Positions 9,981-29,819 of a stretch of 34,187 nucleotides of DNA are shown one piece after another. The stretch's first letter is position 1; every line of letters starts with the position of its first letter. The DNA comes from a candidate division WWE3 bacterium RIFOXYB1_FULL_43_24 (lineage in GTDB: Bacteria; Patescibacteriota; WWE3; UBA101185; UBA10185). The position numbers and the translations under genes were made by a program. The DNA lies in assembly GCA_001773135.1 (NCBI GenBank), contig MEVX01000015.1:64179-98365 (forward strand). The letters are read 5' to 3'. The notes under the pieces are model-generated. The model saw only the letters and a list, made by a program, of their open reading frames with translations. It made no database searches and was not told where the DNA came from.

Positions 9981-11267
9981 ATGCATTTTGTCCCGTCAAT
10001 AAAAGAGTTCCTCACCCGGCCTTATTTGTTCATCTATTCGTTCCTGATTTTTGTTCTGCCTTTTGTTTTTTCCCGTGAAACTAACGAGTTATACGAGTTT
10101 CCCAAAATCACATTTTTCTATACGGTCTGCACTATTGCAGCAGCCTTATTTCTATCAGACCTGATTTTAAAACCACGGAAAACATCCCGGGTTCCTACGG
10201 CTATTGTTTTGTTTCTTGTTTCAGCAGGTATTTCCACACTACTATCTTTTCATATCAACACGTCGTTGTTCGGTTACTACTCGAGATTTGCCGATTCTTT
10301 TATCTTTTATATAGCTCTCGCTATTTTTTACTATATAGCGGTAAATGTGTTTTCTGCGGGTGACTTCAAAAAACTTTTAAAAGTCGCACAAATTGGTTCT
10401 GTATTCCTTTTTATATTCGCGCTTAGCCAATATTTTGAACCGTTCAATTTTTTATGGGGAGGGCGGTTGCAGGATAGGGTGTTTTCGACCTTAGGGCAAC
10501 CCAATTGGTATGCGCAATACATTCTCATTCTGTTAGGAATCAGTCTCTATGAATTCCTTTTCCGTAACGGGAAGATTTATTTTATATTTTATGTTGTTCA
10601 GTTCTTTTCTCTTTGGTTAACCTTTTCGATGTCAGGTTTGGCAGGATTTTTAGTTCTAGTTATTTTCTACATAGTTAGGTTTTTGTTAAAAGAAAAAGTT
10701 GAGGACAGGCCCGGACTGTACTTAAGATTAGTTGCGGTAACAGCCATCACATTAATCATCCCTTTAGCATTTCCCGGAATATTTAGAGAGAGACTTAACG
10801 ACGTGCTGATAGATGCTGAAAAAGTTGTTGGCAGTTTTACAATAGTCCACGCACAAACCGGAACGCAGGAAAATCTTGTTTCCGACCCCGGATATATAAG
10901 ATCAGGTTTATGGAGTGGTACGTTAGCAATGATTGTTTCGAGCCCCAAGGTATTTCTATTTGGTACAGGACCGGAGACGTTCCCTTATTACTTTCAAAAG
11001 TTCAGACCAGCAAGTTTAAATTATTCTTCCGAGTGGAATTATGTTTTTAATAAGCCGCATAATTATTATTTAGAAACATGGGCGGAGCAGGGGTTAATCG
11101 GTGTTTTTTCGTCCTTATACTTATTGTATTTTTTGTTTAGCCGGACTGACACAAGATACAAGGGAGGTGTTCTGGCATTTGCTGTTACGAATATTTTCGG
11201 GTGGCCGACAGTCGCTCCGGCAGTTCTGCTGTGGTTAATATTAGCTACGGTTAAAAAGAAACTATGA
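9981..11267 (+). CDS. O-antigen ligase/Wzy-like polymerase
   Basis: Polytopic membrane protein of the Wzy_C/O-antigen ligase superfamily (428 residues, about ten membrane helices). These enzymes transfer or polymerise lipid-linked glycans on the outer face of the membrane. Typical landmarks are GQPNWYAQYILI in a mid-protein helix, a large extracytoplasmic loop, and the signature loop GTGPETFPYYFQKF...HNYYLETWAEQGLIG, in which the HNYYLE histidine is the conserved catalytic-loop element. The gene is divergent from two unknown membrane genes and overlaps the TPR gene by ATGA. Ligase, polymerase or glycoprotein-specific oligosaccharyltransferase cannot be separated from sequence alone. Confidence 0.85.
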   Translation: MHFVPSIKEFLTRPYLFIYSFLIFVLPFVFSRETNELYEFPKITFFYTVCTIAAALFLSDLILKPRKTSRVPTAIVLFLVSAGISTLLSFHINTSLFGYYSRFADSFIFYIALAIFYYIAVNVFSAGDFKKLLKVAQIGSVFLFIFALSQYFEPFNFLWGGRLQDRVFSTLGQPNWYAQYILILLGISLYEFLFRNGKIYFIFYVVQFFSLWLTFSMSGLAGFLVLVIFYIVRFLLKEKVEDRPGLYLRLVAVTAITLIIPLAFPGIFRERLNDVLIDAEKVVGSFTIVHAQTGTQENLVSDPGYIRSGLWSGTLAMIVSSPKVFLFGTGPETFPYYFQKFRPASLNYSSEWNYVFNKPHNYYLETWAEQGLIGVFSSLYLLYFLFSRTDTRYKGGVLAFAVTNIFGWPTVAPAVLLWLILATVKKKL

Positions 11268-11863: not shown

Positions 11864-13030
11864 CTCTACGTAATCTGCCGATACCCACCCCTCCGAAGTA
11901 TCAGAGATTTTTATTTTTATCCAGCCGGTTTGTTCCTCGAGTACTCGGTATGTTCCTCCGGTGTCTACGCGTGTTATCTCTGTTCCGTTCAAACTCGGTT
12001 CGTTTCTCACTCTCAGCCAGCCTGTGGGCGTAGTTTTAATCTTCGCTTGCTTACCGAGTGTTACGGTTCCCAGGAGAGTTTCGAGAGTTTGTTTGGCCTC
12101 CTTAGAAAGTCCCTGTCCATCAACTGTCCTTCCCAAATAACCGATTTTGCTCTCTGCTTTTACAGACGCCAACTCTTCTTTTGTGGTGATAACTATCCCT
12201 TCGGCATTGAAGAGATCCCCCTTATAAGAAAGGAATAGTTCGAAGAAAGGCTCTTTGTTCTCTCCGGTTCCCTCAATATTCAAACCCCGTGTTTTATTCC
12301 AGTAAACGACCGCTTTAGCCCATTCTTGGGGGTTTGTAGTGACGACATTGTTGTCCGATGACAAGTCATATAGATTTTTCGATCCTTCAAAGGAAGAGAT
12401 TTTTTGAGGGACGGGAACGGGAAAGAGCTTAAAAGTTGCATTTAACGTGTAGCCTTTGTTTACGGTGATTCTTGATGTTTGAACAGCGAAACCCGCAATG
12501 GCTATTTTTAACTCGTAATCACCGTCGCTTATGTTGTTAGAAAGAAAAGGTGTTGTTCCTACCTCGGAGTTATCGATATAGACCTTAGCTCCCGACGGCT
12601 CGCTTATCACCCTAAGAACATTGCTTGACGTGTCTTTTTCAAACCAAAACTCTTTACCTGAGCTAAATGTATCTGAAATCCCAAGATCTCTCTCAATCCC
12701 GACGTAATGTATATTACCCTGTTCGCTCGGGAGAAAGTTCAGGGAAGTTTGATACTGCCTTTCCCCGTTCTTTATTGTAATTTTGTTAACCCCGGAAGCT
12801 ATGTTGTCGGAAGTATACGGAGTTTTACTTACAAATTTATCGTTTATGTAAACTTCAGCAGATTCTCCGGAAACCTCAACTTTTATCCCGGATTTTGATC
12901 TAAGTTTATCGGCATTTGTGATGATATAGCCACCGAAATAGACTATAAGTCCCACACCTACAATACCGATTATATAGAGAGCTGCGTTGGGTAGTGATTT
13001 TTCCTTGTTGGCAATAGTAGATATTGACAT
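11852..13030 (-). CDS. anchored PEGA-PEGA-SH3 surface protein
   Basis: A 392-residue predicted extracytoplasmic protein. A membrane anchor (ALYIIGIVGVGLIVYFGGYI) occupies about residues 16-35. Next come two PEGA-type beta domains (AEVYINDKFVSKTPY and, more canonically, EPSGAKVYIDNSEVGTTPF), a mixed region, and a C-terminal bacterial SH3 domain with TGWLRVRNEPSLNGTEI and GWVSADYVELVE. PEGA and SH3b domains commonly bind surface polymers such as peptidoglycan or S-layer, so a cell-wall-binding role is likely. I chose the second ATG (13030) because a GATAAT box at 13045-13050 would leave the first ATG (13042) upstream of the transcription start. It is divergent from tRNA-Cys. Confidence 0.8.
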   Translation of the reverse strand: MSISTIANKEKSLPNAALYIIGIVGVGLIVYFGGYIITNADKLRSKSGIKVEVSGESAEVYINDKFVSKTPYTSDNIASGVNKITIKNGERQYQTSLNFLPSEQGNIHYVGIERDLGISDTFSSGKEFWFEKDTSSNVLRVISEPSGAKVYIDNSEVGTTPFLSNNISDGDYELKIAIAGFAVQTSRITVNKGYTLNATFKLFPVPVPQKISSFEGSKNLYDLSSDNNVVTTNPQEWAKAVVYWNKTRGLNIEGTGENKEPFFELFLSYKGDLFNAEGIVITTKEELASVKAESKIGYLGRTVDGQGLSKEAKQTLETLLGTVTLGKQAKIKTTPTGWLRVRNEPSLNGTEITRVDTGGTYRVLEEQTGWIKIKISDTSEGWVSADYVELVE

Positions 13031-13074: not shown

Positions 13075-13148
13075 GGCCTGGTAGCCAAGTGGCAAGGCAA
13101 GGGTCTGCAAAACCCCCACCGCGGGTTCGATTCCCGCCCAGGCCTCCA
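13075..13148 (+). tRNA. tRNA-Cys (GCA anticodon)
   Basis: A complete 74-nt cloverleaf with encoded CCA. The acceptor stem is GGCCTGG paired with CCAGGCC, the D stem GCC/GGC, the anticodon loop CTGCAAA with anticodon GCA, and the T arm GCGGG-TTCGATT-CCCGC. The discriminator base is U73, the cysteine identity element. The outermost base pair of the anticodon stem looks like an A-C mismatch. The gene lies upstream of alaS, which begins 60 nt later. Confidence 0.96.
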
Positions 13149-13208: not shown

Positions 13209-15047
13209 ATGACGTCGAAAGAAATATTACAAAAATACATAAACTTTTATACGGACCGTGGGCACAAACAAATCCCCAACGTTTCACTTATTCCGGAAGG
13301 AGACTCTACATTACTTTTCGTAAACTCCGGCATGTTTCCTTTAGTCCCTTATCTTTCCGGAGAACAACACCCCTTAGGTAAAAGATTGGTAAATGTACAA
13401 CGTTCATTACGTTTTGAGGATATAGAAGAAGTTGGAACGACAATAAGACATACGATAGCTTTTCATATGATAGGGAACTGGTCGCTCGGTGATTATTTCA
13501 AAGAAGAACAGTTGCCGTGGGCATACGAATTTTTCATTGAGGTTTTAGGACTGGCTCCGGAAAAACTTTTCGCAACTGTTTTTGAGGGGGACGCCGATGC
13601 TTCGAGAGATGACGAATCCATAGCTATTCTGAAAGAAGTTTTCAAAAAATACGGCATTGAGGCAAAGGAAGGTGAAAGAATCTTTTTATGCGGTAAAAAG
13701 GACAATTGGTGGCAGCGCGGAGATGCCGTAGGTGAACTCGGAGGCCCCGACAGCGAAGTTTTTTATTATCTCGGAGAAGGCACGGGAGTAGGAAAATCAC
13801 CGGCTGATAATCCTGATGATTTTTTAGAAATCGGAAATTCCGTGTTCATGCAATACAAAAAGACCGAAAAAGGCTGGGAACCCCTTTCACAAAAGAACGT
13901 AGATTTCGGAGGAGGTCTGGAAAGACTTGCCGTAGTTTCTCAAAACAAACGCGATATTTTCGAAACAGACAATTTCTGGCCAATCGTGGAAAAAGTAGAG
14001 GAATTATCGGGAAAACCATATTCTTCCGACGACAGAACCAAAAGAGCGATGAGGATTATTTCCGACCACATGAGAGCTTCGTGCCTACTTGGGATGGACG
14101 GTGTTCAACCCGAGAACAAAGATCAGGGGTATGTTTTGAGAAGGCTGTTAAGAAGGACGGTTAGATCGGGAAAAATTTTGGGGATTGAAAAAGAACTTAC
14201 CTTTTCTTTGGTGGATCCCGTCGTAACTGCTGTCGGATGGCTTTACCCCCAACTATCAGAGAAGAAAGAACAGCTTAAAAAAATATTTACGGAAGAGGAA
14301 GAGAAGTTCAGGAAGACTTTAACAAAAGGTAATGCAATTTTGGAAAAAGCATTACTTAAAATCGGACAGGACGAACTAAAAAAGAAAACACTACGGGAGT
14401 GGGCACAGATGTCTTTCGACCTGTTCCAGTCCGTGGGGTACCCCGAAGAAATTTTCGTGGATGATCTCGAGGACAAGGGAATACTTCTGGATCACAAGGA
14501 TTTTCACAAAGAGTTTTTGGCCGTATTTGACCTTCACCAGCAAAAGTCACGTGCGGGAGCAGAAAATAAATTCAAAGGCGGTTTGGCTGACCATAGCGAA
14601 GCAGTTATTAAATACCACACAACAACCCATTTGCTACAGGCAGCGCTCAGAAAGGTGCTGGGGGACCACGTGGGGCAATTAGGGAGCAACCTGACGGCCG
14701 AGAGATTGAGGTTTGATTTTTCTCATCACGGGAAAAAAATGACCGAGGAGGAAGTGGCTGAGGTCCAATCCATTGTGAACTCGAGGATAAAAGAAGCATT
14801 GCCGGTGGGTTTTATCGTGATGCCAAAGGAAGAGGCCGAAAAGTCGGGCGCCCTTTACATGAAAAATGAGACCTATCCTGAAGAAGTAAAAGTGTATTAT
14901 GTGGGGAACGACTTTTCTAACGCGGTTAGCAAAGAGCTTTGCGGAGGCCCGCACGTGGCTAACACCGGGGAACTGGGGGAATTCGAGATATACAAGCAGG
15001 AAAGCATAGGAGAAGGCAAACTTCGTATCTACGGCCGTTTGAAGTAA
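13209..15047 (+). CDS. alaS: alanyl-tRNA synthetase, minimal form
   Basis: Class II synthetase that charges tRNA-Ala and clears mischarged Ser/Gly. The catalytic core is normal (LLFVNSGMFPLVPYLSG, RSLRFEDIEEVG, FHMIGNWSLGDYF, GGGLERLAVV) and the tRNA-recognition helices follow (RRLLRRTVRSG). The editing site has both zinc-type elements, HTTTH and CGGPH. At 612 residues it is far shorter than the usual 850-900. The beta-barrel part before the HTTTH motif (normally bearing a FYAExGGQ sequence) is absent, and the protein stops just after the editing domain with no C-Ala/oligomerisation domain. The frame is open from 12987 but runs through tRNA-Cys, so I take the ATG at 13209 (MTSKEILQKYI). Confidence 0.95.
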   Translation: MTSKEILQKYINFYTDRGHKQIPNVSLIPEGDSTLLFVNSGMFPLVPYLSGEQHPLGKRLVNVQRSLRFEDIEEVGTTIRHTIAFHMIGNWSLGDYFKEEQLPWAYEFFIEVLGLAPEKLFATVFEGDADASRDDESIAILKEVFKKYGIEAKEGERIFLCGKKDNWWQRGDAVGELGGPDSEVFYYLGEGTGVGKSPADNPDDFLEIGNSVFMQYKKTEKGWEPLSQKNVDFGGGLERLAVVSQNKRDIFETDNFWPIVEKVEELSGKPYSSDDRTKRAMRIISDHMRASCLLGMDGVQPENKDQGYVLRRLLRRTVRSGKILGIEKELTFSLVDPVVTAVGWLYPQLSEKKEQLKKIFTEEEEKFRKTLTKGNAILEKALLKIGQDELKKKTLREWAQMSFDLFQSVGYPEEIFVDDLEDKGILLDHKDFHKEFLAVFDLHQQKSRAGAENKFKGGLADHSEAVIKYHTTTHLLQAALRKVLGDHVGQLGSNLTAERLRFDFSHHGKKMTEEEVAEVQSIVNSRIKEALPVGFIVMPKEEAEKSGALYMKNETYPEEVKVYYVGNDFSNAVSKELCGGPHVANTGELGEFEIYKQESIGEGKLRIYGRLK

Positions 15048-17157: not shown

Positions 17158-18030
17158 CTACTTAGACACTTTTAGTCTCTTCAGCGCGGATTTATAAGCT
17201 TCTATAATTCTGGGTGAGTTATCGTTTTTCCTAAAGTGGATTATGTGAGATTTCAATATTTCTGTAGTAACCTTTTTTTTCATGTAGATCATTTGAGATC
17301 GTTTCGCGATTTTTTCCAGAGCATTAAGAAGAATTCCGCTGCTCCTGCGTCTGGTCTTTGACGGGTAGTTAATTTTGAAATTCGGGAAATAATCCGAGAC
17401 CCAACTATTCTCTTTCATGAATTGTAAATAGGTGTCAGTTTTGTCTACCACCGGTTGCATCATAGCAATATCTGAGGCGACATAAATATTTCTCCTATCC
17501 TTATCCCAAGCCATTTTTGTCTCGTCCATGAACAGATTTGTGCAAAAGCTTCCCGGCTGTCCGTCATACTCGGGGTGTTTTTGTAATATTTTAAGGATTG
17601 TTGCGACAAAACCTCTTGTCAACCAAACCCGGTTTTTACCTGTAACAATAAGTATGTCGACGTCAGAATCTTTTTCGGGGTTGTAAGCAGCCAAAGATCC
17701 TGTAACTGCAATCATTTTTATCCAGGGTATTCCGCCGAGGAACTTAATAAGATTAGTATTTTCCTTCAAAATTCTGTTCGCATGTTTGTATTTCCAAAGC
17801 CAGTTGGTATATTTTTCGCCACAAATTTCATACTTGCCATATCTTTTCCGGGCCCAACCTTCTTTTACTAAGCTGTTTAGAGCTTCTCTAAGTTTCTTTC
17901 CATCTGCAGGTTTTGTAGAGATCAGAAAGTTTGAGAGCTGATAAAAACTTATTGGGTATTGGAATATCGAACGGTAGGCAAGGGTGCGTTTTATTGCTTT
18001 TGCCGTTTCTTTTTTGCTGCTTTTTCTCAT
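17158..18030 (-). CDS. winged-helix nucleotidyltransferase-fold protein
   Basis: About 290 residues. The N-terminal roughly 90 residues look like a winged-helix domain (ISFYQLSNFLISTKP, LNSLVKEGWARKRYGKYEI). The middle holds a Pol-beta-type nucleotidyltransferase core, VTGSLAAYNPEKDSDVDILIVT, with the GS and DxD metal-binding aspartates. The C-terminal part is basic and helical. Such proteins transfer a nucleotide to protein, antibiotic or RNA; no substrate is evident. I take ATG 18028-18030, 1 nt after the RNase HI stop; an ATG at 18063 would overlap RNase HI by 32 bp. It is the last gene of the Wzz-RNase HI unit. Confidence 0.75.
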   Translation of the reverse strand: MRKSSKKETAKAIKRTLAYRSIFQYPISFYQLSNFLISTKPADGKKLREALNSLVKEGWARKRYGKYEICGEKYTNWLWKYKHANRILKENTNLIKFLGGIPWIKMIAVTGSLAAYNPEKDSDVDILIVTGKNRVWLTRGFVATILKILQKHPEYDGQPGSFCTNLFMDETKMAWDKDRRNIYVASDIAMMQPVVDKTDTYLQFMKENSWVSDYFPNFKINYPSKTRRRSSGILLNALEKIAKRSQMIYMKKKVTTEILKSHIIHFRKNDNSPRIIEAYKSALKRLKVSK

Positions 18031-18031
18031 T

Positions 18032-18451
18032 TTAAAAGCCTTTGGGGGAGTCCTGGTAGGCATCTAGGGCTTTATTTACCAAAAGATCTGCGTCTTGATT
18101 ATTTTCCCTCAGAACGTGACTGAACTCTATTTCTTTGAATCTTGATGCCAGTTCTCTGGCTGTTAGCCAGAGTGTTTTAAGATCGATATTTTTTACTCTA
18201 TATTCTCCCTTCAGTTGTTTCACTATTAATTCGCTGTCCAGACGGCAGTCTAGGTGTGATATCTTTCTTTCTAACGCTGCTTTTAGCCCTTCTATCAGGG
18301 CTGCGTATTCTGCTTGATTGTTCGTAGCTTTTCCGATGTACGTTCCCAATTCAAATATTTTTTCTTTTTTCTCGTTTCTGATAACTACTCCTATTGCTGA
18401 AGGTCCCGGATTTCCCCGTGCCCCTCCGTCGGTATTCATCTGGTATTTCAT
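18032..18451 (-). CDS. rnhA: ribonuclease HI
   Basis: Endonuclease that cuts the RNA of RNA-DNA hybrids. The 139-residue protein is a compact RNase H fold with all four acidic catalytic residues: Asp8 (NTDGGARGNPG), Glu48 (TNNQAEY), Asp72 (LDSELIVKQL) and Asp122 (NNQDADLLVN), plus His112 in the flexible loop. The GGARGNPGP start is typical of the short, basic-protrusion-poor type seen in Gram-positives and archaea. Its ATG overlaps the stop of the Wzz-like gene (ATGA), an unusual partner, and the nucleotidyltransferase gene follows immediately. Confidence 0.95.
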   Translation of the reverse strand: MKYQMNTDGGARGNPGPSAIGVVIRNEKKEKIFELGTYIGKATNNQAEYAALIEGLKAALERKISHLDCRLDSELIVKQLKGEYRVKNIDLKTLWLTARELASRFKEIEFSHVLRENNQDADLLVNKALDAYQDSPKGF

Positions 18452-19053
18452 TTTAGATATTCCTTAAATGTTATTTTGAGAAGAACGGAAACTAAGCCGA
18501 GTAACAAACCGCCGGCCACGTAATTTATAAAGGGTCTCTGTTCTTGTTTGACAGTGGGGTTGTTCGAAAGAGACGATACTGATATGTTTTCATCCGAACC
18601 TGCGTTGACTTTTTTACTGGTGTCGAGGAATTTCGAAGAAATTACCGTAAAGGTATTTAACGATTTATTGTAATCGTAGTCGGACACTCTGATAGTAATC
18701 ACCTGCGGTCCGTTTTTCGATACTCTGTAGCTTCTTGAAAGCTTTCTAATGCTGGTGTCCGTTACGGGAATTCTTAGTTCTTCTAACACAGCCCTTTTTA
18801 AATCCTGGCTTTCTAAAAGACCTACCGCCGTATTTGTATATGATTGGGCGGTCTGTTGCGCGTAGTAGCCTTCGTAAGTGAAGAATTCGGTACTTGGACG
18901 GTCCGCTGTTCTGCCCACAAAATAGGAAGCTTCGGTGTTATACTTTCCCGGTAAAAAAGATGCAGCTAAGCCCAAGAGTCCCCCGCAAAATATAAACAGC
19001 CCTATTTCTCTACGTTTTTTATTCAAAATTTTAAGTATTTCTTTTAACTCCAT
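18448..19053 (-). CDS. Wzz-like polysaccharide chain-length determinant
   Basis: A 201-residue membrane protein with the Wzz/polysaccharide co-polymerase topology: an N-terminal cytoplasmic helix (ELKEILKILNKKRREI), TM1 at about residues 17-35, an extracytoplasmic domain of about 135 residues, and TM2 at about 176-192 preceded by the usual PFINYV segment. It is short for the family and lacks the C-terminal tyrosine-kinase domain; no separate kinase is seen. It would set the length of a Wzy-made glycan. The start lies 7 nt from the 25-bp repeat array, so the repeats sit in its promoter region. Confidence 0.78.
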   Translation of the reverse strand: MELKEILKILNKKRREIGLFIFCGGLLGLAASFLPGKYNTEASYFVGRTADRPSTEFFTYEGYYAQQTAQSYTNTAVGLLESQDLKRAVLEELRIPVTDTSIRKLSRSYRVSKNGPQVITIRVSDYDYNKSLNTFTVISSKFLDTSKKVNAGSDENISVSSLSNNPTVKQEQRPFINYVAGGLLLGLVSVLLKITFKEYLK

Positions 19054-19241: not shown

Positions 19242-22200
19242 ATGGTCAAAAGTCAGTCCATTAAAAAAAATTCGCTCGCCCCAACGATTTTAGTGAGTGG
19301 TGGCGCAGGATTTATAGGATCTCACCTTGTTGAGGCGTTGCTAGCTAACGGAGCGAAAGTTCTGGTAGTTGACAATTTTAACACCGGAAAAGAAATTCAC
19401 GTAAAACATCTATTATCTAACCCTAATTTTGCTCTTTTTAATGTGGATATAAATGAGGGTCTTCCTCCGGAAATCGAAAGCGTTGACTATGTTTTTCATA
19501 TGGCTGGTCTTGAGGACTACATGTACAGTAAAGACAACCCGACGCTGGATTCATTACTCACAAATTCTTTGGGGACGAAAACACTTTTGGATTTGGTCCG
19601 TCGTTCGGAGGCCAAGTTCGTTCTTATTTCCACAATCGACGTTTATCAGGGAAGGATGTCTCAGGACGAGCTGGCAAAATATTTCGGACTTTCCAAACCT
19701 GAGGAAAATAAATTCAGCTTAATAGAAGCCAAAAGATTTGCGGAAGCAGTAGTTTGGGAATACTTCAAAAAATATGATCTCGACGTTCGCATAGTAAGAC
19801 TCCCCGAGGTATACGGGCCGCGGATGAGTTTTGATTCAAGCGGCGTGATGGGGCTGTACATAAGAACGTTGATTGAGAATAAGGATATTGAAGTTCAAAA
19901 CGATGGTGTAGAGAAGGAATATTACCTTTACGTTTCGGATGCAGTTAGCGGCATTTTGAGATCGATGTTTAACCAGGAAACAAAAGGGAATATTTATTCG
20001 CTGGTACCGGAATCAGCAATTACGCAGCTTGAGCTGGCATATCTACTTAGAAGTGTTGCTGACGGGAATCTTCAGATCAGCTTTAAACAATCAGGGCCTT
20101 CTCTGCCTTTCCGTGGTCCCGTTCCCGAGACATTTAATTTGAAGGATTTGTCATGGAAACCGCGTATAAGTTTAAAGTCGGGTGTTATCGATACTCTAAA
20201 ATGGTTCGGATATTCGGTTAATCAGAATACTTTTAAGCCGACCAAGTATGTTGAGGAAAAGGCGATATCAAAGGGAACCCAGACAACCGCAGTAGTATCT
20301 TCTGAGCCGGCGAGTGTAAGTTCTATATATCCCCCCAATAGTTCCGATTTATACACAAAAATGTACCCGACAAAGCCTGTAAAATCTCACAAGGTTCTGA
20401 ATTTAAAATCTTTATTTAGTTCTGGCAAAAAGAAGGAGCTTGTTACAAAACAAACCCCGTCCACAAAAAAATTACCCAACTTTTTGGGTAACCCTAAATT
20501 TTTCACAGCTACTGCAATATTCATATCAGCTATACTTGTATTTTTGGTTAATCCAGCCTTAAGTCTTTACTCGAATGCCCGTTCGGGCGCATCCGCGCTA
20601 CAAAAAGTTGCTGTTGCAGGTTCTTCGTTTGATGTAAATAGCTTATCGAAAAATACTATTCTAGCCTCCAAAAAATTCGAAGCAGCAAGAAAAAACCTGT
20701 CGAATCTTAAATGGATTTTTTCATTCTCAGGAAAATCAGAAGAGTACATAAGTTACTTCCGTATGTTTTCATCCCTGCAAAATTTTTCGGATTCAATAGA
20801 ACATCTTTCCAAATCAGCTGAGCCGTTGGAGGGTATGTGGGAAGTTCTACGTCCCGATACTGAAAATGTTTTGACGCGCGAAACTGTAGATACCGCAAAG
20901 CTTGAAATAGATTCGGCTCAAAAACTTCTTTACATAGCCCAGGCTGATTTTAACGGGGTAGAACAAAAACATATTCCGGAAAAATACAGAAGTTATATTT
21001 CAGACTACGGAAAGTATATAAATACTTTGCAACAAAATTTGGATCTGACTACAAAAATAATTGGGGAAGCTGCAACTGTTCTGGGTGTTGATAAAGAGAC
21101 CACGTATATAGTTTGGTTTCAAAATTCGAATGAGATAAGACCGACGGGTGGTTTTATAGGTTCGTATGGTCTCTTAACTTTTAATAAGGGTAAGCTGAAG
21201 GATTTGAAGATAGATGATATTTATAATCCTGATGGGCAGATTTTACTAAGAGATATAAAGACAACTCCGCCTGAGATAATTTCGAAATATTTGGCTGAAG
21301 ATAGACTATATCTGAGGAATTCAAACTGGGAGCCGGATTTTCCCACAGCGGCGGGAGTTTTTAACGATCTGTTTTATAAGATAGACGGTCAGCATGTTGA
21401 CGGGTACATAGCTGTTGATCTTAAATTTGTCGAAGGAATACTGAGAGCAACCGGTCCTGTGTTCCTGGCTGCTTACAACGAGGAGATTAATGCAGAAAAT
21501 CTTTATGAAAGGACACAGTATCACAGCGACTTTAACTATGTCAGCGGTTCCGATCAAAAAAGATCTTTCTTAACTATTCTCGGGAGCAAGCTTTTAGAGA
21601 AAATGTTTTCTCTGCCAAAAGATAAATTACCTAATTTACTTTCCGAAACGGAAAAATCTTTGAGTGAAAAACATTTGTTGATAAATCTTCCAGCCGGGGA
21701 GTTGAGCGAAGTATTAAAAGAGAAGAATTGGAACGGGCAGGTGGTATCTGTTGAAGGCGATTATCTTTATGTAGTCAATTCAAACTTAGGTGGTACAAAA
21801 GCAAATTATTTTGTAAGAAATAATACAGATTATGAAATAAGTTCCATGACGCGGGACGGGGTTTTAAGAGCTAAATTAAAATTGACTTACACTCATACGG
21901 GAGAATCTATGGCATGGCCCGGGGGTCCTTATAAAAACCATGTAAGAGTTCTTGTCCAAAAAGGAGCCAAACTTACGGGAGCGGAATTTGTTGATGCCGC
22001 GGGGAAAACTGTTGATGTTTTTAAAGAGATAGGTATAAATCACCCGAACGGTTACGATGTTTTTAGTTATGATCTTGTGGTCAATCCTAAAGAAGCTGTT
22101 TCCTTGGTCATAAAGTACGATTTACCCGAGAGCCTTAATGTATCAAAAGATAAGCTCTCTTATAACTTATATGTTCAGAAACAACCCGGAACCGATGCCG

Positions 22201-22340
22201 ATCCTTTTAGCTTTACGTTTCTTCCTCCGTTCGGTACCGAAATAATAAAAGCAAGCAAAGAATTAGATATTTTGAATAATATGATTATGAACACATCAGG
22301 TTTGAGTAGGGATATAAATTACTTTATAGAGCTTCGCTGA
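19242..22340 (+). CDS. SDR-epimerase / DUF4012 membrane fusion protein
   Basis: A 1032-residue fusion. Residues 15 to about 330 are an extended short-chain dehydrogenase (UDP-sugar epimerase/decarboxylase type): NAD-binding GGAGFIG at 20-26, ISTIDVYQG, and PEVYGPRM. The YxxxK catalytic pair is broken: Lys164 is kept but the Tyr position is Leu160 (LIEAK). After a Ser/Pro/Lys linker comes one membrane helix at about 420-442, then an extracytoplasmic part that contains DUF4012 (FQNSNEIRPTGGFIGSYG from about residue 625, and DDIYNPDG). So a probable cytoplasmic NAD-sugar sensor or scaffold is tethered to a large outer domain of unknown function. It is followed 14 nt later by prgI, suggesting a link to the secretion cassette. 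Confidence 0.82.
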   Translation: MVKSQSIKKNSLAPTILVSGGAGFIGSHLVEALLANGAKVLVVDNFNTGKEIHVKHLLSNPNFALFNVDINEGLPPEIESVDYVFHMAGLEDYMYSKDNPTLDSLLTNSLGTKTLLDLVRRSEAKFVLISTIDVYQGRMSQDELAKYFGLSKPEENKFSLIEAKRFAEAVVWEYFKKYDLDVRIVRLPEVYGPRMSFDSSGVMGLYIRTLIENKDIEVQNDGVEKEYYLYVSDAVSGILRSMFNQETKGNIYSLVPESAITQLELAYLLRSVADGNLQISFKQSGPSLPFRGPVPETFNLKDLSWKPRISLKSGVIDTLKWFGYSVNQNTFKPTKYVEEKAISKGTQTTAVVSSEPASVSSIYPPNSSDLYTKMYPTKPVKSHKVLNLKSLFSSGKKKELVTKQTPSTKKLPNFLGNPKFFTATAIFISAILVFLVNPALSLYSNARSGASALQKVAVAGSSFDVNSLSKNTILASKKFEAARKNLSNLKWIFSFSGKSEEYISYFRMFSSLQNFSDSIEHLSKSAEPLEGMWEVLRPDTENVLTRETVDTAKLEIDSAQKLLYIAQADFNGVEQKHIPEKYRSYISDYGKYINTLQQNLDLTTKIIGEAATVLGVDKETTYIVWFQNSNEIRPTGGFIGSYGLLTFNKGKLKDLKIDDIYNPDGQILLRDIKTTPPEIISKYLAEDRLYLRNSNWEPDFPTAAGVFNDLFYKIDGQHVDGYIAVDLKFVEGILRATGPVFLAAYNEEINAENLYERTQYHSDFNYVSGSDQKRSFLTILGSKLLEKMFSLPKDKLPNLLSETEKSLSEKHLLINLPAGELSEVLKEKNWNGQVVSVEGDYLYVVNSNLGGTKANYFVRNNTDYEISSMTRDGVLRAKLKLTYTHTGESMAWPGGPYKNHVRVLVQKGAKLTGAEFVDAAGKTVDVFKEIGINHPNGYDVFSYDLVVNPKEAVSLVIKYDLPESLNVSKDKLSYNLYVQKQPGTDADPFSFTFLPPFGTEIIKASKELDILNNMIMNTSGLSRDINYFIELR

Positions 22341-22354: not shown

Positions 22355-24031
22355 ATGGCACTAGCAGACATGCCCCAGTCAAATAAACAACACGCTGTTC
22401 CTCAGAATGTCATGAGCGTGGATTTCAAACTTATCGGCGATCTCACAATGAGGCAGTTTGCCTATGTCTTCATTGCCGGAATACTGGCTTATCTATCATA
22501 TGTTTTTTTTATCGGTATTTTTCGTTGGCCACTTGTATTTTTTATAGCCTTTATGGGAATAGGTTTTGCATTTATCCCCGTTCAGGAAAGAGGTATGGAC
22601 GAGTGGATAGTGAATTTTTTCAGAGCCATGAATATGCCGACGCAGCGTGTCTGGAAAAAAGAACCCACTATTCCGTCCGCGTTTATGTACGATGACCTTG
22701 CTACTTTAAAGCAGGAGCTTATTACACTAGCACCGACGTCCAGCAGAAGAAAGCTGGAGGAATACCTAAAATATCAAACCAGTCCGGAGGAAGTGGATCC
22801 GCTCGATATTCCGGAAAAAGAGTACGCTAAAAAAGTAAAAGATGCGTTTCCGGCCTATAAGAAAAAAAGCAGTACTGGAGCAACGGCCTTTTCCCGTTCT
22901 TCGTATGGTGCCCAACCGGTGGGAGTTCAGCCCGCAGTCGCTCCGGTTGCGGGAGCCCCCGTGTCCACAGCTGTTGGTTTAGAACCACCCAAAGAAGAAG
23001 GAATTTTGGTAGAAACCCCCCAGGTTGGTGCTGTCCCGGTTGAAAAATTGGAAAGTAAGGATCAGGGCGTGATTCAAAAGCGCAAAGATGCAGGTCTCTT
23101 TCATATCTTCAGAGCAAAAGAAGCACAAAAAGCTCGGGAGGAAGCGATAGCTAAAAAAACTTCAGGAAGTATACCGGCACCCGCACCTCAAGGTGCCTCG
23201 TCGGGCTCGGTATCTTTAAGCCCAATGACCCCCGACATGCACTCGGGGCGCAGGTTTATAAACCTGCTCCCGTCCCAAGGCGAACTAATTCTACCCATCA
23301 GGGGTGAAAGGGTTCTTCGTACTTCAGAGGAAATATCAGTAGAAGAAAGCATAAATGACAAGGCTTTAAAACTTCAATCTTTGTTGAAAAAGATTAAGGA
23401 AGAGGAAGGGATCAAGCTTTCCAAACCCCGCGTTATACCCGTTCCCGTGGTCCAAAAGAAAGAGCAGGAGGCTCAGGAGGTTCACGATGAGGCAAAGGAT
23501 GTAGTAGAGAAGCTTAAAACCCAAAGCGGTGAACTCACGGACGAAATAACAAGACTCAAAAAGAATATACAGACCACGCATACCCCCGGTACAGCTTCCG
23601 AAACCCAATCCAGATTATTGAAAGATTTGGAAACCAAGCAACAGACAGTCGAAGAAAATTATAAGGTACTTAGCCGCGGCATCCAGAGTTTAAAATCCCC
23701 ACCTTCCGGGGATACTTCAGGACCTTCGCGGTTGAACATAGACAGTTATCCTCTGGGCAGTGTTACTCCGAATACTTTACACGGAGTGGTCAAAAACGCC
23801 GAAGGTAAGGTCCTGACCGATGTTCTTTTGATAGTTAAAAATGAACGGGAAGAACCTGTACGTGCTTTGAAAACTGATAGTTTGGGAAGGTTCGAATTAT
23901 TGTCTGCTCTTGGTAATGGCAAATACTCAATAGAGGTAAAACCTTCGGATGAAATTAAATTGTCCTTTGAGAAAATTTCTGTAGAATTAAAAGGTGAGGT
24001 AGTGCCTCCATTTGTGATATCCGGTAAATAA
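22355..24031 (+). CDS. PrgI-family membrane protein with C-terminal Ig-like domain
   Basis: A 558-residue protein. The first roughly 110 residues match the PrgI/VirB3-like family of type IV secretion: MSVDFKLIGDLTMRQFAYV, two adjacent membrane helices, then FIPVQERGMDEWIVNFF. The long remainder is soluble: a low-complexity Ala/Pro/Val region, a basic KAQKAREEAIAKK stretch, a coiled coil of about 80 residues around 370-450, and a C-terminal carboxypeptidase-regulatory-like beta domain (LHGVVKNAEGKVLTDVLLIV...DSLGRFELLSALGNGKYSI). PrgI proteins are normally only 100-150 residues, so the tail is an elaboration. It is followed 1 nt later by the TraC-N-like gene. Confidence 0.8.
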   Translation: MALADMPQSNKQHAVPQNVMSVDFKLIGDLTMRQFAYVFIAGILAYLSYVFFIGIFRWPLVFFIAFMGIGFAFIPVQERGMDEWIVNFFRAMNMPTQRVWKKEPTIPSAFMYDDLATLKQELITLAPTSSRRKLEEYLKYQTSPEEVDPLDIPEKEYAKKVKDAFPAYKKKSSTGATAFSRSSYGAQPVGVQPAVAPVAGAPVSTAVGLEPPKEEGILVETPQVGAVPVEKLESKDQGVIQKRKDAGLFHIFRAKEAQKAREEAIAKKTSGSIPAPAPQGASSGSVSLSPMTPDMHSGRRFINLLPSQGELILPIRGERVLRTSEEISVEESINDKALKLQSLLKKIKEEEGIKLSKPRVIPVPVVQKKEQEAQEVHDEAKDVVEKLKTQSGELTDEITRLKKNIQTTHTPGTASETQSRLLKDLETKQQTVEENYKVLSRGIQSLKSPPSGDTSGPSRLNIDSYPLGSVTPNTLHGVVKNAEGKVLTDVLLIVKNEREEPVRALKTDSLGRFELLSALGNGKYSIEVKPSDEIKLSFEKISVELKGEVVPPFVISGK

Positions 24032-24032
24032 T

Positions 24033-24734
24033 ATGGCTGCTCAAACGACACCTACAACTCAAGATCATTTGGATATTTACGACGTAAAAGACAATCTTGT
24101 CCTTTTAAAAAATGGTGCTGTTTGCGCTGTTTTACAAACAACAGCAGTAAATTTTGATTTGTTATCTGAAATTGAACAGGACGCCATAATTGCTGCTTTT
24201 TCAATGTTGTTGAATTCTATAACTTTTCCAATTCAGGTTGTTATAAGGTCGAGAAGGCTGGATATTACTAAATATATTGAAAAAGTTTACAGAGTTGAAA
24301 CCCGTTTGAGCGATCCGTTACTCAAATTTCAGGCCCAAGCCTACAGAAAATTCGTTCAGGAAGTTATTAAAAAGAATGATGTTTTGGATAAAAGGTTTTA
24401 CGTCGTCATACCCACTAGCGTAGCCGAACTGTCCCAGCCGGGATCGGGACCTTTTGATTGGGTAATGAAGTTAACGGGACAGCACAACAAGAGAGCGTCA
24501 TTTAACGTGGATAAAGTACTCAATGATGGAAGAATTGAACTTGCGCCGAAAATAGATCACGTGATTAAGGAATTTAACAGGCTGGGAATAAAAACCAAAC
24601 AGCTGACAACCCAGGATTTGGTGGAGCTATACTTTGATATCTACAACCCCACGACTATCCATGGGCAACGTATAAGAACAGGAATAGATGATTACACGAC
24701 GGCGATAGTAAACCCCGCCATCATAGAGGAATAA
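24033..24734 (+). CDS. TraC/VirB4 N-terminal-domain-like protein
   Basis: A 233-residue soluble protein that starts like the N-terminal domain of TraC/VirB4-type conjugation ATPases (LVLLKNGAVCAVLQTTAVNFDLLSEIEQ, then LNSITFPIQVVIRSRR and RFYVVIPTS), but has no Walker motifs. The adjacent VirB4 gene carries its own N-terminal domain, so this is an extra stand-alone module rather than half of a split gene. It probably assembles with the ATPase and the PrgI protein at the membrane. The gene is packed 1 nt after prgI and 1 nt before virB4. The assignment is by sequence pattern only. Confidence 0.7.
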   Translation: MAAQTTPTTQDHLDIYDVKDNLVLLKNGAVCAVLQTTAVNFDLLSEIEQDAIIAAFSMLLNSITFPIQVVIRSRRLDITKYIEKVYRVETRLSDPLLKFQAQAYRKFVQEVIKKNDVLDKRFYVVIPTSVAELSQPGSGPFDWVMKLTGQHNKRASFNVDKVLNDGRIELAPKIDHVIKEFNRLGIKTKQLTTQDLVELYFDIYNPTTIHGQRIRTGIDDYTTAIVNPAIIEE

Positions 24735-24735
24735 T

Positions 24736-26856
24736 ATGGGATTAAATCTTTTTACAATAGGTGCAAATAAACCACAACCCAAGAAACAGCAACAGGGTAA
24801 ACAAGGAGAAAAAACTCCGGCACAGGTATTAGCCGAAGGAATGTTAAATGTTAGAGATATCATTGCACCCTCTGCAATCGAGGTAGATTTTACTTACCTA
24901 CGCATAGGTAATATGTATTTCAGAACCATATTCGTTTCAGGATACCCGAGATTTGTCGGAGCGAACTGGCTGTCTCCGATAATCAACTTCGAGCACACGT
25001 TGGATGTTTCGATGTTTTATTACCCCGTTAAGTCCAAGGTTATTTTGGACGATCTGAGAAGGAAGATTACAGAACTCGAAGCTACTACAATGACCAATGT
25101 AGAGAAGGGTAAGATAATCGACCCTGTTGTTTCGGCGGCACTTGAAGATGCAAAGACTCTTCAGGAACAGCTTGTTAAGGGCGTGGAGAAATATTTTCAA
25201 TTTTCTTTCTACATCACCATATCGGCCGAAACGCCCGAGGAACTTGAATCGATAACTTCAAAACTGGAAAGTACTTTAGGCGCCCTGCTCCTTATTTCAA
25301 AAGTTGCTTCACTCCAAATGGAAGATGCTTTCCAATCGTCAATTCCAACCGGATTAGACAAGTTGTTGATTACGAGGAATATGGATACAACCAGCCTTGC
25401 CACCACTTTCCCTTTCACTTCTTCGGATTTAACTATGGAAGAAGGAATCATGTACGGTATCAACAGGCACAACGGTTCGTTGGTAATCTTCGACCGTTTC
25501 TCACTTGAAAATGCCAACTCGGTTGTCTTTGCTAAATCAGGTTCAGGTAAATCTTATTTCGTAAAGCTGGAAGCGTTGAGATTACTTGTGTTCGGTTCTG
25601 AAGTTATGATCATCGATCCTGAAGAGGAATACAGAACACTGTGCGAAGCCGTCGGCGGAAATTACATCGATTTCTCGGCAAACTCCTCTCACAAAATAAA
25701 TCCGTTTGACCTTTCAGGAGTTGCAGTTGAAGGCGAAAATGAACTTGGTCAAAAACTAATCGGTCTAATCACGCTACTTAAACTAATGCTCGGCGGACTA
25801 ACCGCTTCGGAAGAAGCCATTCTGGACAGGGCTTTAATAGAAACTTACAGGATAAAAGGTATTACGACCGACCCCGATACTCAGTCGGGTATTGAACCCC
25901 CTGTTATGGAAGATCTCTATAAAGTCTTGATGGGAGCTTCCGAACCCGAAGCTAAGGGGATGGCCGAAAGACTTGAAAGATTTATTAAAGGGTCAATGAC
26001 GGGTATTTTCGATTCCCAGTCAAACATAAATCTTGATAGTAAAATGACAGTATTTTCTACTAAAAATCTTGAAGAGGCTCTAAGACCAATTGCCTTTTAT
26101 CTAATTCTTGATTTCGTCTGGACGAGAATAAGACGCGATCTCAAGAAAAGAATCCTGATAGTGGAGGAGGCTTGGTATTTATTACAAAACGAAGATAGCG
26201 CAAGATTTATCTACAGTATTGCGAAAAGAGCCAGAAAATATTATTTGGGACTCACGACAATTTCTCAGGATGTCGACGACTTTTTATCTTCGGAATACGG
26301 AAAAGCAATTGTTACAAACTCATCTATTCAAATTCTTTTGAAACAACACCCCGCCGGTATTGATAAAGTTGCGGAAACATTTTATTTGTCGGAAGGCGAG
26401 AAGAGATTGTTACTTGCGGCTGCAGTTGGAGAAGGTTTGTTTTTTGCCGGTGCCAACCACGTTGCAATAAAAGTTATGGCTTCTGAGGCGGAACATAAAC
26501 TTATTACTACAAATCCGGAGGAACTCCTGAAGCTGAGGGAGCAGGGTTTGATAAAGGCACCGGGTTCTAATAGTCCGAGCACGACACCGCCGGTACCTCC
26601 CATTCAGAAACCTTACGAGCAGGTTGGGCAACCCGCCGGACAAGATACTTCTACTATTACGGACACTGAGACTTCAATACAAAACCAGGGTGAAAATAAG
26701 CCCGAGGAAAACAGGGTAGAACAATCTGTACCGCCAAAAGAGCCCTCCTCGGAAGATATATTGAGATCTGTGGAGTCCTTATCAAAAGATCAGGGAACGA
26801 TAAATCTCGGAAACACCCCGCCACAGTCGGGTCCTACTCCCCCAGTCGAACTATAG
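24736..26856 (+). CDS. VirB4/TraE-type secretion ATPase
   Basis: A 706-residue ATPase that would power assembly or substrate transfer in a type IV secretion or pilus-like machine. The N-terminal half resembles the CagE/TrbE/VirB domain; the HerA/FtsK-like motor has Walker A AKSGSGKS (266-273), the IIDPEEEYRTL element, and Walker B ILIVEEAWYLL (with Glu477-Glu478), followed by RARKYYLGLTTISQD and the QI-type sensor SSIQILLKQHP. A Pro/Ser/Glu/Gln-rich tail of about 100 residues is probably disordered. No coupling protein (VirD4), relaxase or VirB6 gene is in the window, so a DNA-transfer role is not shown. The TAG stop lies within a CTATAGTC repeat. Confidence 0.9.
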   Translation: MGLNLFTIGANKPQPKKQQQGKQGEKTPAQVLAEGMLNVRDIIAPSAIEVDFTYLRIGNMYFRTIFVSGYPRFVGANWLSPIINFEHTLDVSMFYYPVKSKVILDDLRRKITELEATTMTNVEKGKIIDPVVSAALEDAKTLQEQLVKGVEKYFQFSFYITISAETPEELESITSKLESTLGALLLISKVASLQMEDAFQSSIPTGLDKLLITRNMDTTSLATTFPFTSSDLTMEEGIMYGINRHNGSLVIFDRFSLENANSVVFAKSGSGKSYFVKLEALRLLVFGSEVMIIDPEEEYRTLCEAVGGNYIDFSANSSHKINPFDLSGVAVEGENELGQKLIGLITLLKLMLGGLTASEEAILDRALIETYRIKGITTDPDTQSGIEPPVMEDLYKVLMGASEPEAKGMAERLERFIKGSMTGIFDSQSNINLDSKMTVFSTKNLEEALRPIAFYLILDFVWTRIRRDLKKRILIVEEAWYLLQNEDSARFIYSIAKRARKYYLGLTTISQDVDDFLSSEYGKAIVTNSSIQILLKQHPAGIDKVAETFYLSEGEKRLLLAAAVGEGLFFAGANHVAIKVMASEAEHKLITTNPEELLKLREQGLIKAPGSNSPSTTPPVPPIQKPYEQVGQPAGQDTSTITDTETSIQNQGENKPEENRVEQSVPPKEPSSEDILRSVESLSKDQGTINLGNTPPQSGPTPPVEL

Positions 26857-28581: not shown

Positions 28582-29034
28582 TCATTTTTTGGGCTTTAAT
28601 GTAACTCTTCGGTCACGTCCTTCTCCGGAGCTTTCTGAGATGACATCGTCGTATTCGGCAACAAACATGTGGATCTGTCTTCTTTCCCATGGATCCATAG
28701 GAGGAAGCTCGACGTCTTTTTGAAAAAATCGGACCCTATCGATGTAGCTTTTAGCCATGTTCTGGATCTTTTCCGCGCGCTGATCTTTGTATCCGTTTAT
28801 ATCTATCAATACCGTAACTTGTTCTCCTGTTTGTCTTAAAACAGTCAGGTGCAAAATGCTTTGTAGAGCATCCAATGATTGGCCCTGGTGCCCTATTAAA
28901 AAATTCAGGTTATTGCCCTGTATTTTTACTTCAAAAATACCGTCGTCCTTACCGTTAATTTCGTAATTAGGATTTATTTTCATAAACCCGAATATATTAT
29001 CTAAAGTGTTTTTTATTACTTCCACAATGTTCAT
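28582..29034 (-). CDS. khpB: KH-R3H RNA-binding protein KhpB/Jag
   Basis: RNA-binding protein that in Gram-positive bacteria acts with KhpA to control cell-division and elongation genes. The 150 residues comprise a KH domain with the GxxG loop (LIGHQGQSLDALQSI) and an R3H domain (WERRQIHMFV, with the Arg-x-x-x-His signature and GEGRDRRVTLKPK). The N-terminal Jag domain seen in longer homologues is missing. It overlaps yidC by ATGA, the usual yidC-jag pairing. No khpA is in the window. Confidence 0.93.
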   Translation of the reverse strand: MNIVEVIKNTLDNIFGFMKINPNYEINGKDDGIFEVKIQGNNLNFLIGHQGQSLDALQSILHLTVLRQTGEQVTVLIDINGYKDQRAEKIQNMAKSYIDRVRFFQKDVELPPMDPWERRQIHMFVAEYDDVISESSGEGRDRRVTLKPKK

Positions 29035-29819
29035 TTTTTTGCTCCTTTAGCTAACGATAATTTCTTAACCCAGGGCTCCAGGCCGCCCCACCCACTGGTG
29101 AAGTACGTCTGGGCAATTTGAAATAGGGTCGAAACAACTATGTATATCATAACACCTGAGGGCAAGGTCAGACCGAAAACAAAAAACATGAGCGGCATGA
29201 CATATAGGTTTTGTTTTTGCATGGACTGCAGCATGTCGTCGGTTTTATCCGGAGTTTTCTTAACGAGCTTATCGTTTATTTTGGAGAAAGGCATCATCAT
29301 TTTAGTTGCTAAAAACTGGAAGACTACTGCTAGTATGGTGATAATAAATAATGGATCGGGTTTTGATAGGTCGAGGTAAAGGAATTTGGTGTTTATCGTC
29401 TCATCCTGACTAAATTGAAATTGCTGAAAATATATATTTTTGTTTAAGTCGTTTATGCTTGTTCCATCGGTCATTGTTATAACTGATCTGTAAACAGCTA
29501 TCATGAAAACCAGTGTCACTATTGTGGTCAGACACCCCGACGCCGGGTTGATCCCGTGCTTTTTCATAAGTTCCATTTGCATCGCCGCCATCTTTTTCTT
29601 ATCGTGTTTATATTTTTCTTTTATTTTCTGAATTTCCGGTTGTATATCACGCTGTTTCTGGCTCATCTTAATAGAAGGAAGGGTCACAGGTATCATAATG
29701 GCCTTTATTATCAGGGTGAAAAGAATTATTGCTACACCAAGATTTCCCACAAAAGAGTAGATAATAATTAATATGTTAAATATCGGATTTAAAATTATAT
29801 TTTGCCAGATTTCCGCCAT
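29031..29819 (-). CDS. yidC: membrane protein insertase YidC/Oxa1
   Basis: Inserts proteins into the cytoplasmic membrane, alone or with SecYEG. The 262-residue protein is the short Gram-positive/Oxa1-like type without the large periplasmic domain. It begins with two hydrophobic segments, has the conserved region LFTLIIKAIMIPVTLPSIKMSQKQRDIQPEI, a helical cytoplasmic hairpin (KIKEKYKHDKKKMAAMQMEL), the ASGCLTTIV helix, and a C-terminal TM pair (LPSGVMIYIVVSTLFQIAQ). It follows yidD by 6 nt and overlaps khpB. Confidence 0.95.
   Translation of the reverse strand: MAEIWQNIILNPIFNILIIIYSFVGNLGVAIILFTLIIKAIMIPVTLPSIKMSQKQRDIQPEIQKIKEKYKHDKKKMAAMQMELMKKHGINPASGCLTTIVTLVFMIAVYRSVITMTDGTSINDLNKNIYFQQFQFSQDETINTKFLYLDLSKPDPLFIITILAVVFQFLATKMMMPFSKINDKLVKKTPDKTDDMLQSMQKQNLYVMPLMFFVFGLTLPSGVMIYIVVSTLFQIAQTYFTSGWGGLEPWVKKLSLAKGAKK

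Follow-up and report, generated by a model that had tools for sequence, protein, structure and literature searches.

What role can an SDR domain that has lost its catalytic tyrosine play when it is tethered, through one membrane helix, to a large DUF4012 ectodomain? A gene of this kind lies in the window analysed here, a stretch of 34,187 nucleotides from a candidate division WWE3 bacterium. The question reaches beyond the single locus, as surface glycans of Patescibacteria matter for the host encounter of tiny, mostly host-dependent cells, and the majority of the genes behind these glycans lack names.

Domain layout and distribution of the fusion protein

The fusion protein consists of 1032 amino acids (positions 19,242–22,340, forward strand, as are all its parts below) and was delimited by its open reading frame, Pfam matches and orthologues. 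PF01370 (Epimerase) was matched at residues 16–252 (E = 3e-32) and PF13196 (DUF4012) at residues 618–758 in the same frame (E = 4e-27), the latter at 96 bits compared with a gathering score of 28. The SDR domain, membrane helix and DUF4012 domain are thus encoded in one reading frame, where the initial annotation had placed them. In the AlphaFold2 model, an extended-SDR (UXS/GalE-like) domain, predicted to be cytoplasmic (residues 12–330; 19,275–20,231), is followed by a disordered linker with pLDDT below 50 over residues 328–417 (residues 331–417; 20,232–20,492) and by a long membrane-spanning helix from residue 418. The hydrophobic stretch itself covers approximately residues 419–441 (20,496–20,564). 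The outer part of the model comprises a helical bundle (residues 446–609; 20,577–21,068), the alpha/beta DUF4012 core with the motif NxxE[IL]R[PA]TGG (residues ~613–850; 21,078–21,791) and a C-terminal beta domain, delimited by the model and Foldseek (residues 861–1032; 21,822–22,337). The continuous model helix over residues 418–461 and a Lys-rich flank on its N-terminal side agree with the single transmembrane helix described initially, and the arrangement with the SDR domain inside and DUF4012 outside is supported.

Three congeneric genomes carry the same fusion at 87–89% identity, and among them is the closed chromosome CP006914.1. Matches at this level in named WWE3 genomes place the organism of the window in WWE3/Katanobacteria. 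The fusion is likewise present in RIFOXYC1_FULL_40_10, a genome labelled 'complete, curated'. Relatives occurred in 26 of the 27 genomes of the family, closed genomes included and with one copy truncated at the edge of its contig; a search at the order level returned the same genomes as that at the family level. Further relatives were present in most of the remaining class and in many other Patescibacteria families. An assembly error joining two separate genes, which had been raised as a way in which the architecture could prove spurious, is ruled out by the closed genomes. The gene fusion is real and of ancient origin. Both halves come from known families; the fusion, the repeated inactivation and the phylum-wide linkage described below are unusual.

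Two relatives are incomplete. L055 (5510–7201), of 563 amino acids and located in a contig interior, has the SDR domain followed by the membrane helix and stops before the DUF4012 core, and L062 is truncated at the edge of its contig.

Loss of catalytic and UDP-contacting residues in the SDR domain

By sequence, the closest solved relatives of the SDR domain were human UDP-xylose synthase (UXS) entries (phmmer, E = 4e-42), and the best fold match of its model was human UXS1 (4gll; Foldseek, TM 0.82 on the target). In the phmmer alignment, the catalytic Tyr147/231 of UXS (numbering from the table in PMC12820599) lay opposite Leu160, the UXS lysine opposite Lys164, Thr118 opposite Thr131 and Glu120 opposite Asp133. 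Because residues 152–178 form one helix in the AlphaFold2 model, Leu160 and Lys164, the first and last residues of the former YxxxK motif (19,719–19,733), would stand on the expected SDR helix, in agreement with the assignment made in the initial annotation. Neither the model nor the family alignment revealed any other conserved tyrosine within this helix.

The phosphates of the UDP-sugar are contacted by Asn176 in UXS or Asn180 in GalE of Bifidobacterium longum, and Arg232 of the latter enzyme also contacts the UDP phosphates (PMC12820599, PMC6668579). The domain shares with UDP-xylose synthase/GalE-type extended SDRs (PF01370; human UXS1, 4gll) the Rossmann fold with its GxxGxxG glycine motif (GGAGFIG, residues 20–26; 19,299–19,319), the Asp after beta-2, the Ser/Thr, Lys164 and Arg165. 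However, it differs from them in lacking YxxxK, with Leu160 for Tyr, and both UDP contacts, with Glu189 (19,806–19,808) for Asn and Glu226 (19,917–19,919) for Arg, the column of Arg232 being equated by alignment, and in being extended by a membrane helix with a large outer domain behind it.

Among 73 aligned proteins, comprising 40 from the class (that of the window included) and 33 from the rest of the phylum, Tyr and Lys were both present in the catalytic columns of only seven, and the whole glycine/Tyr/Lys signature in three (L050, L052 and L171). Within the main family clade, the Tyr position holds one of the residues Leu, Val, Ala and Ile; His or Gln appears there elsewhere in the class, and outside the class Phe is seen too. 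Most of the homologues surveyed have lost the tyrosine, by several routes. In three proteins (L063, L066 and L067), Tyr is retained and both Lys and the glycine motif are lost. On a tree built without these columns, the Tyr column changed 10 times and the Tyr/Lys status six times, counts that are approximate because many forks are weakly supported. The domain might nevertheless still be enzymatically active, with a nucleotide sugar or a lipid-linked one as its substrate, by a route independent of residue 160, and the retention of Lys164, of Ser/Thr at 130/131 and of the NAD motif, as well as the strong conservation of the domain within the genus, would fit such an activity. The drift of the Tyr column among Leu, Val, Ala, Ile, His, Gln and Phe and the acidic residues in place of the UDP contacts argue against a working active site, and we consider a surviving enzyme improbable. 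The domain is very probably catalytically dead, as the loss of both the tyrosine and the UDP-site residues suggests, and its designation as a pseudoenzyme appears well founded.

The column of the UDP-contacting Asn holds Glu or Asp in most of the 73 members, Asn itself being present only in L061, a highly diverged protein whose alignment at this site is uncertain; the column of the Arg holds Glu or Asp in 29 of the 40 class members. In the main clade these acidic residues predominate, and members that keep Tyr have them already. Asn is missing from the Tyr-keeping members as well, so the change in the substrate site probably preceded the loss of Tyr. The changes bear on another proposal of the initial annotation, that the domain senses nucleotide-sugar levels and signals outward. 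Its fold is indeed that of a UDP-sugar enzyme, yet with the phosphate contacts replaced by Glu189 and Glu226, and changed nearly throughout the family, this role is disfavoured and seems to us very unlikely.

The NAD-binding signature has fared differently in different parts of the tree. It is intact in the main clade, in which G20, G23, G26, D44, D69 and K164 are invariant, as are all positions of GGAGFIG except residue 25, and redox control by the SDR domain is therefore possible. Outside the main clade, the glycine motif is lost in several lineages, the N-terminal Rossmann part is missing or unrecognisable in L049, L056, L059 and L060, and the SDR domain decays to a remnant in some other lineages, so that NAD binding cannot be indispensable everywhere.

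Decay in the reverse direction was observed in L052 (3834–6431), in which the Tyr/Lys pair and glycine motif of the SDR domain are kept and the DUF4012 motif (R633, GG) has degenerated.

Constraint on the SDR domain

The stepwise decay outside the main clade, in which the glycine motif goes first and then the N-terminal Rossmann part (L049, L056, L059 and L060), would be expected if the SDR half were a functionless leftover from an ancient fusion event and the DUF4012 half alone mattered. However, among four congeneric genomes, the SDR domain was the most conserved part of the fusion, at 94–98% identity compared with 90–92% for the DUF4012 core, 82–89% for the helical part and 62–78% for the fast-evolving linker. 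Within the main family clade, SDR domain and DUF4012 core were conserved alike, with a mean identity of 61% each. Because dS was saturated (mostly 1.3–3), dN/dS was only indicative, and the ranking alone was used. A passive relic is thus an improbable explanation, and, judged from these alignments, the SDR part is not junk in the genus of the window. The series from an intact signature to a nearly lost domain provides natural material for the study of a pseudoenzyme gaining a new role.

Polysaccharide and secretion genes around the fusion

The neighbourhoods were read from stretches around 39 other class loci and 33 phylum loci. In the window, the fusion is preceded on the reverse strand by genes for a Wzz-like chain-length protein (18,448–19,053), an RNase HI-like protein (18,032–18,451) and a nucleotidyltransferase-like protein with a possible winged helix (17,158–18,063), the last of which is conserved in WWE3. 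PF02706 was matched by 19 of 27 Wzz-like homologues (best E = 1e-9), the protein of the window itself being below the gathering score. In 27 of the 39 class loci, the fusion and the Wzz-like gene are immediate neighbours pointing in opposite directions, and beyond the latter come RNase H and usually the nucleotidyltransferase-like gene. Among the 33 phylum loci, Wzz lies directly upstream of the fusion on the same strand in 10 and RNase H directly upstream in 12 more. Some lineages of the phylum have RNase H, Wzz and the fusion in this order on one strand, with Wzy_C upstream of them.

Other components of Wzx/Wzy-type machinery are linked to the fusion as well. The window encodes a Wzy_C O-antigen ligase/polymerase-type membrane protein (9,981–11,267, forward strand; PF04932, E = 1e-13). 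Wzy_C O-antigen ligase-type proteins lie farther upstream in four phylum loci, three of them above the curated cut-off among the genes tested, and a Wzx-type flippase (Polysacc_synt) lies upstream of the fusion in L172. In a locus of another family (L161, 6377–11,319), genes for a WecA-type transferase, a PEGA-domain protein and a fusion that has lost both Tyr and Lys follow in this order. A free DUF4012 paralogue of 652 amino acids in the genome of the window, which differs from the fusion in having no SDR domain, is encoded directly after a Bac_transf priming transferase and glycosyltransferases. The suggestion that the fusion works beside glycan assembly fits the phylum-wide occurrence of Wzz, Wzy_C, Wzx and WecA-type genes in its vicinity. 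A link between DUF4012 and polysaccharides has already been proposed: in the EPS cluster of B. longum, the DUF4012 gene BL105A_0406 lies between a priming transferase and wzz (PMC5412050), and CPR DUF4012 (fam000574) has been connected with that case (PMC6744442), both sharing PF13196 and a glycan neighbourhood with the fusion.

In many phylum loci (L172–L181), the fusion comes shortly after homologues of a 262-amino-acid gene of the window (29,031–29,819; YidC/60KD_IMP) and its 150-amino-acid neighbour. Between this pair and the fusion lie RNase H and Wzy_C, the latter tested in some of the loci, suggesting that the run from the YidC homologue to the fusion is a long-conserved gene block.

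Downstream of the fusion in the window, genes for a PrgI-family protein with a C-terminal CarboxypepD_reg-like domain (22,355–24,031), a separate N-terminal part of VirB4/TraC of 233 amino acids (24,033–24,734) and a VirB4-like ATPase of 706 amino acids (24,736–26,856) follow on the same strand with gaps of 1–14 bp, the PrgI gene starting 14 bp after the fusion. This tight run and the recurrence of its order in 18 other loci of the family and in L052 would suit an accessory of the adjoining PrgI/VirB4 secretion-like system. The tie to secretion genes drawn in the initial annotation stands for these 19 of the 39 other class loci; it fails as a general link, as the fusion was not directly followed by prgI–virB4 at any of the 33 phylum loci. 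The remaining class loci, about half of them, also lack the adjacency, and where it is absent, Wzz or RNase H mostly stays. The prgI/virB4 link is thus lineage-restricted, and a role as a secretion accessory is quite unlikely.

Weak resemblance of the ectodomain to LytR-CpsA-Psr transferases

The ectodomain was modelled with a pLDDT of 90 (AlphaFold2). Its Foldseek matches were mostly M1 aminopeptidases, plus one oligosaccharyltransferase subunit, and these probably belong to the C-terminal beta domain. One further match was to 3pe5 (E = 9e-5, TM 0.45 on the target), which proved to be a LytR-CpsA-Psr (LCP) homologue in a sequence search with the LCP protein L108 as the query, minus one residue near its start and its C-terminal tail. 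When the DUF4012 core was compared using hhalign with a profile of 61 Patescibacteria LCP proteins, a score of 29.2 was obtained (P = 0.0036, probability 9%), compared with scores of at most 20.4 and P of at least 0.069 in 32 control comparisons with unrelated families or domains, 16 run with the DUF4012 core and 16 with the LCP profile. The matched segment lies around DGYIAVDLKFVEGILRATGPVFL. No match to PF03816 was detected on the ectodomain by Pfam at E up to 5, a PDB profile search with the ectodomain returned coiled-coil and helical-bundle matches only, all on the helical part, and a literature search pairing CPR with LytR-CpsA-Psr found nothing. The profile and fold comparisons are suggestive of a remote homology between DUF4012 and LCP, and point with modest strength to an LCP-like fold of the DUF4012 core. 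If DUF4012 is LCP-like, a testable function would follow for a large set of unnamed CPR and Gram-positive proteins.

Like the LCP transferases (PF03816; TagT, Cps2A, 3pe5), the fusion is a single-pass protein with an outer domain, and the two are connected by the modest fold match and one local profile match. The fusion differs from them in the absence of a Pfam LCP match on its ectodomain and in its extra helical and beta domains.

Proposed function of the fusion protein

Considering these results, we favour, with moderate confidence, the following scenario. The fusion would be a factor in the assembly or attachment of envelope polysaccharide that carries an NAD(H)-loaded, non-catalytic SDR module with a regulatory or dimerising role. 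The outer part, with its helical bundle, DUF4012 core and beta domain, would handle undecaprenyl-pyrophosphate-linked polysaccharide, with Wzz and a Wzy_C-type polymerase/ligase as its partners. Because the predicted ectodomain fold distantly resembles that of LCP transferases, attachment or transfer of glycan to an envelope acceptor would be its likeliest job. WWE3 genomes already hold one to three canonical LCPs, however, so a further ligase is not required. The inner SDR domain, formerly of UXS/GalE type, would no longer process nucleotide sugar and would keep the NAD-binding site and the helices by which extended SDRs dimerise. Bound to NAD(H), such a module, dimerising, regulatory or both, may organise or gate the outer part.

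NmrA is a case in which the SDR fold is used for regulation and not for catalysis. Both NmrA and MAT2B are soluble proteins, and neither is known to carry an envelope domain. For MAT2B, a role as a regulatory subunit has been described (PMC3793261). The role proposed here for the SDR module resembles that of these two non-catalytic regulators, in which the fold has been kept for regulation.

A more specific scenario would place DUF4012 within the LCP superfamily, as a divergent branch, and make the fusion a polysaccharide ligase switched from inside by its NAD(H)-loaded dead SDR domain. If true, a gate set by metabolic state would act on surface glycan attachment in many Patescibacteria. We regard this scenario as rather unlikely.

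Other features of the window

The PrgI-family protein (22,355–24,031) is unusually long, at 558 amino acids, and includes a coiled region. The split of virB4 into two adjacent genes is accompanied by an order kept in 18 further loci of the family as well as in L052 and L055. Elsewhere in the window, a tRNA-Cys gene (13,075–13,148) overlaps the 5′ end of the longest mechanically derived AlaRS reading frame (TTG start at 12,987); as the AlaRS profile match begins at residue 75, the true start of AlaRS is probably near position 13,209.
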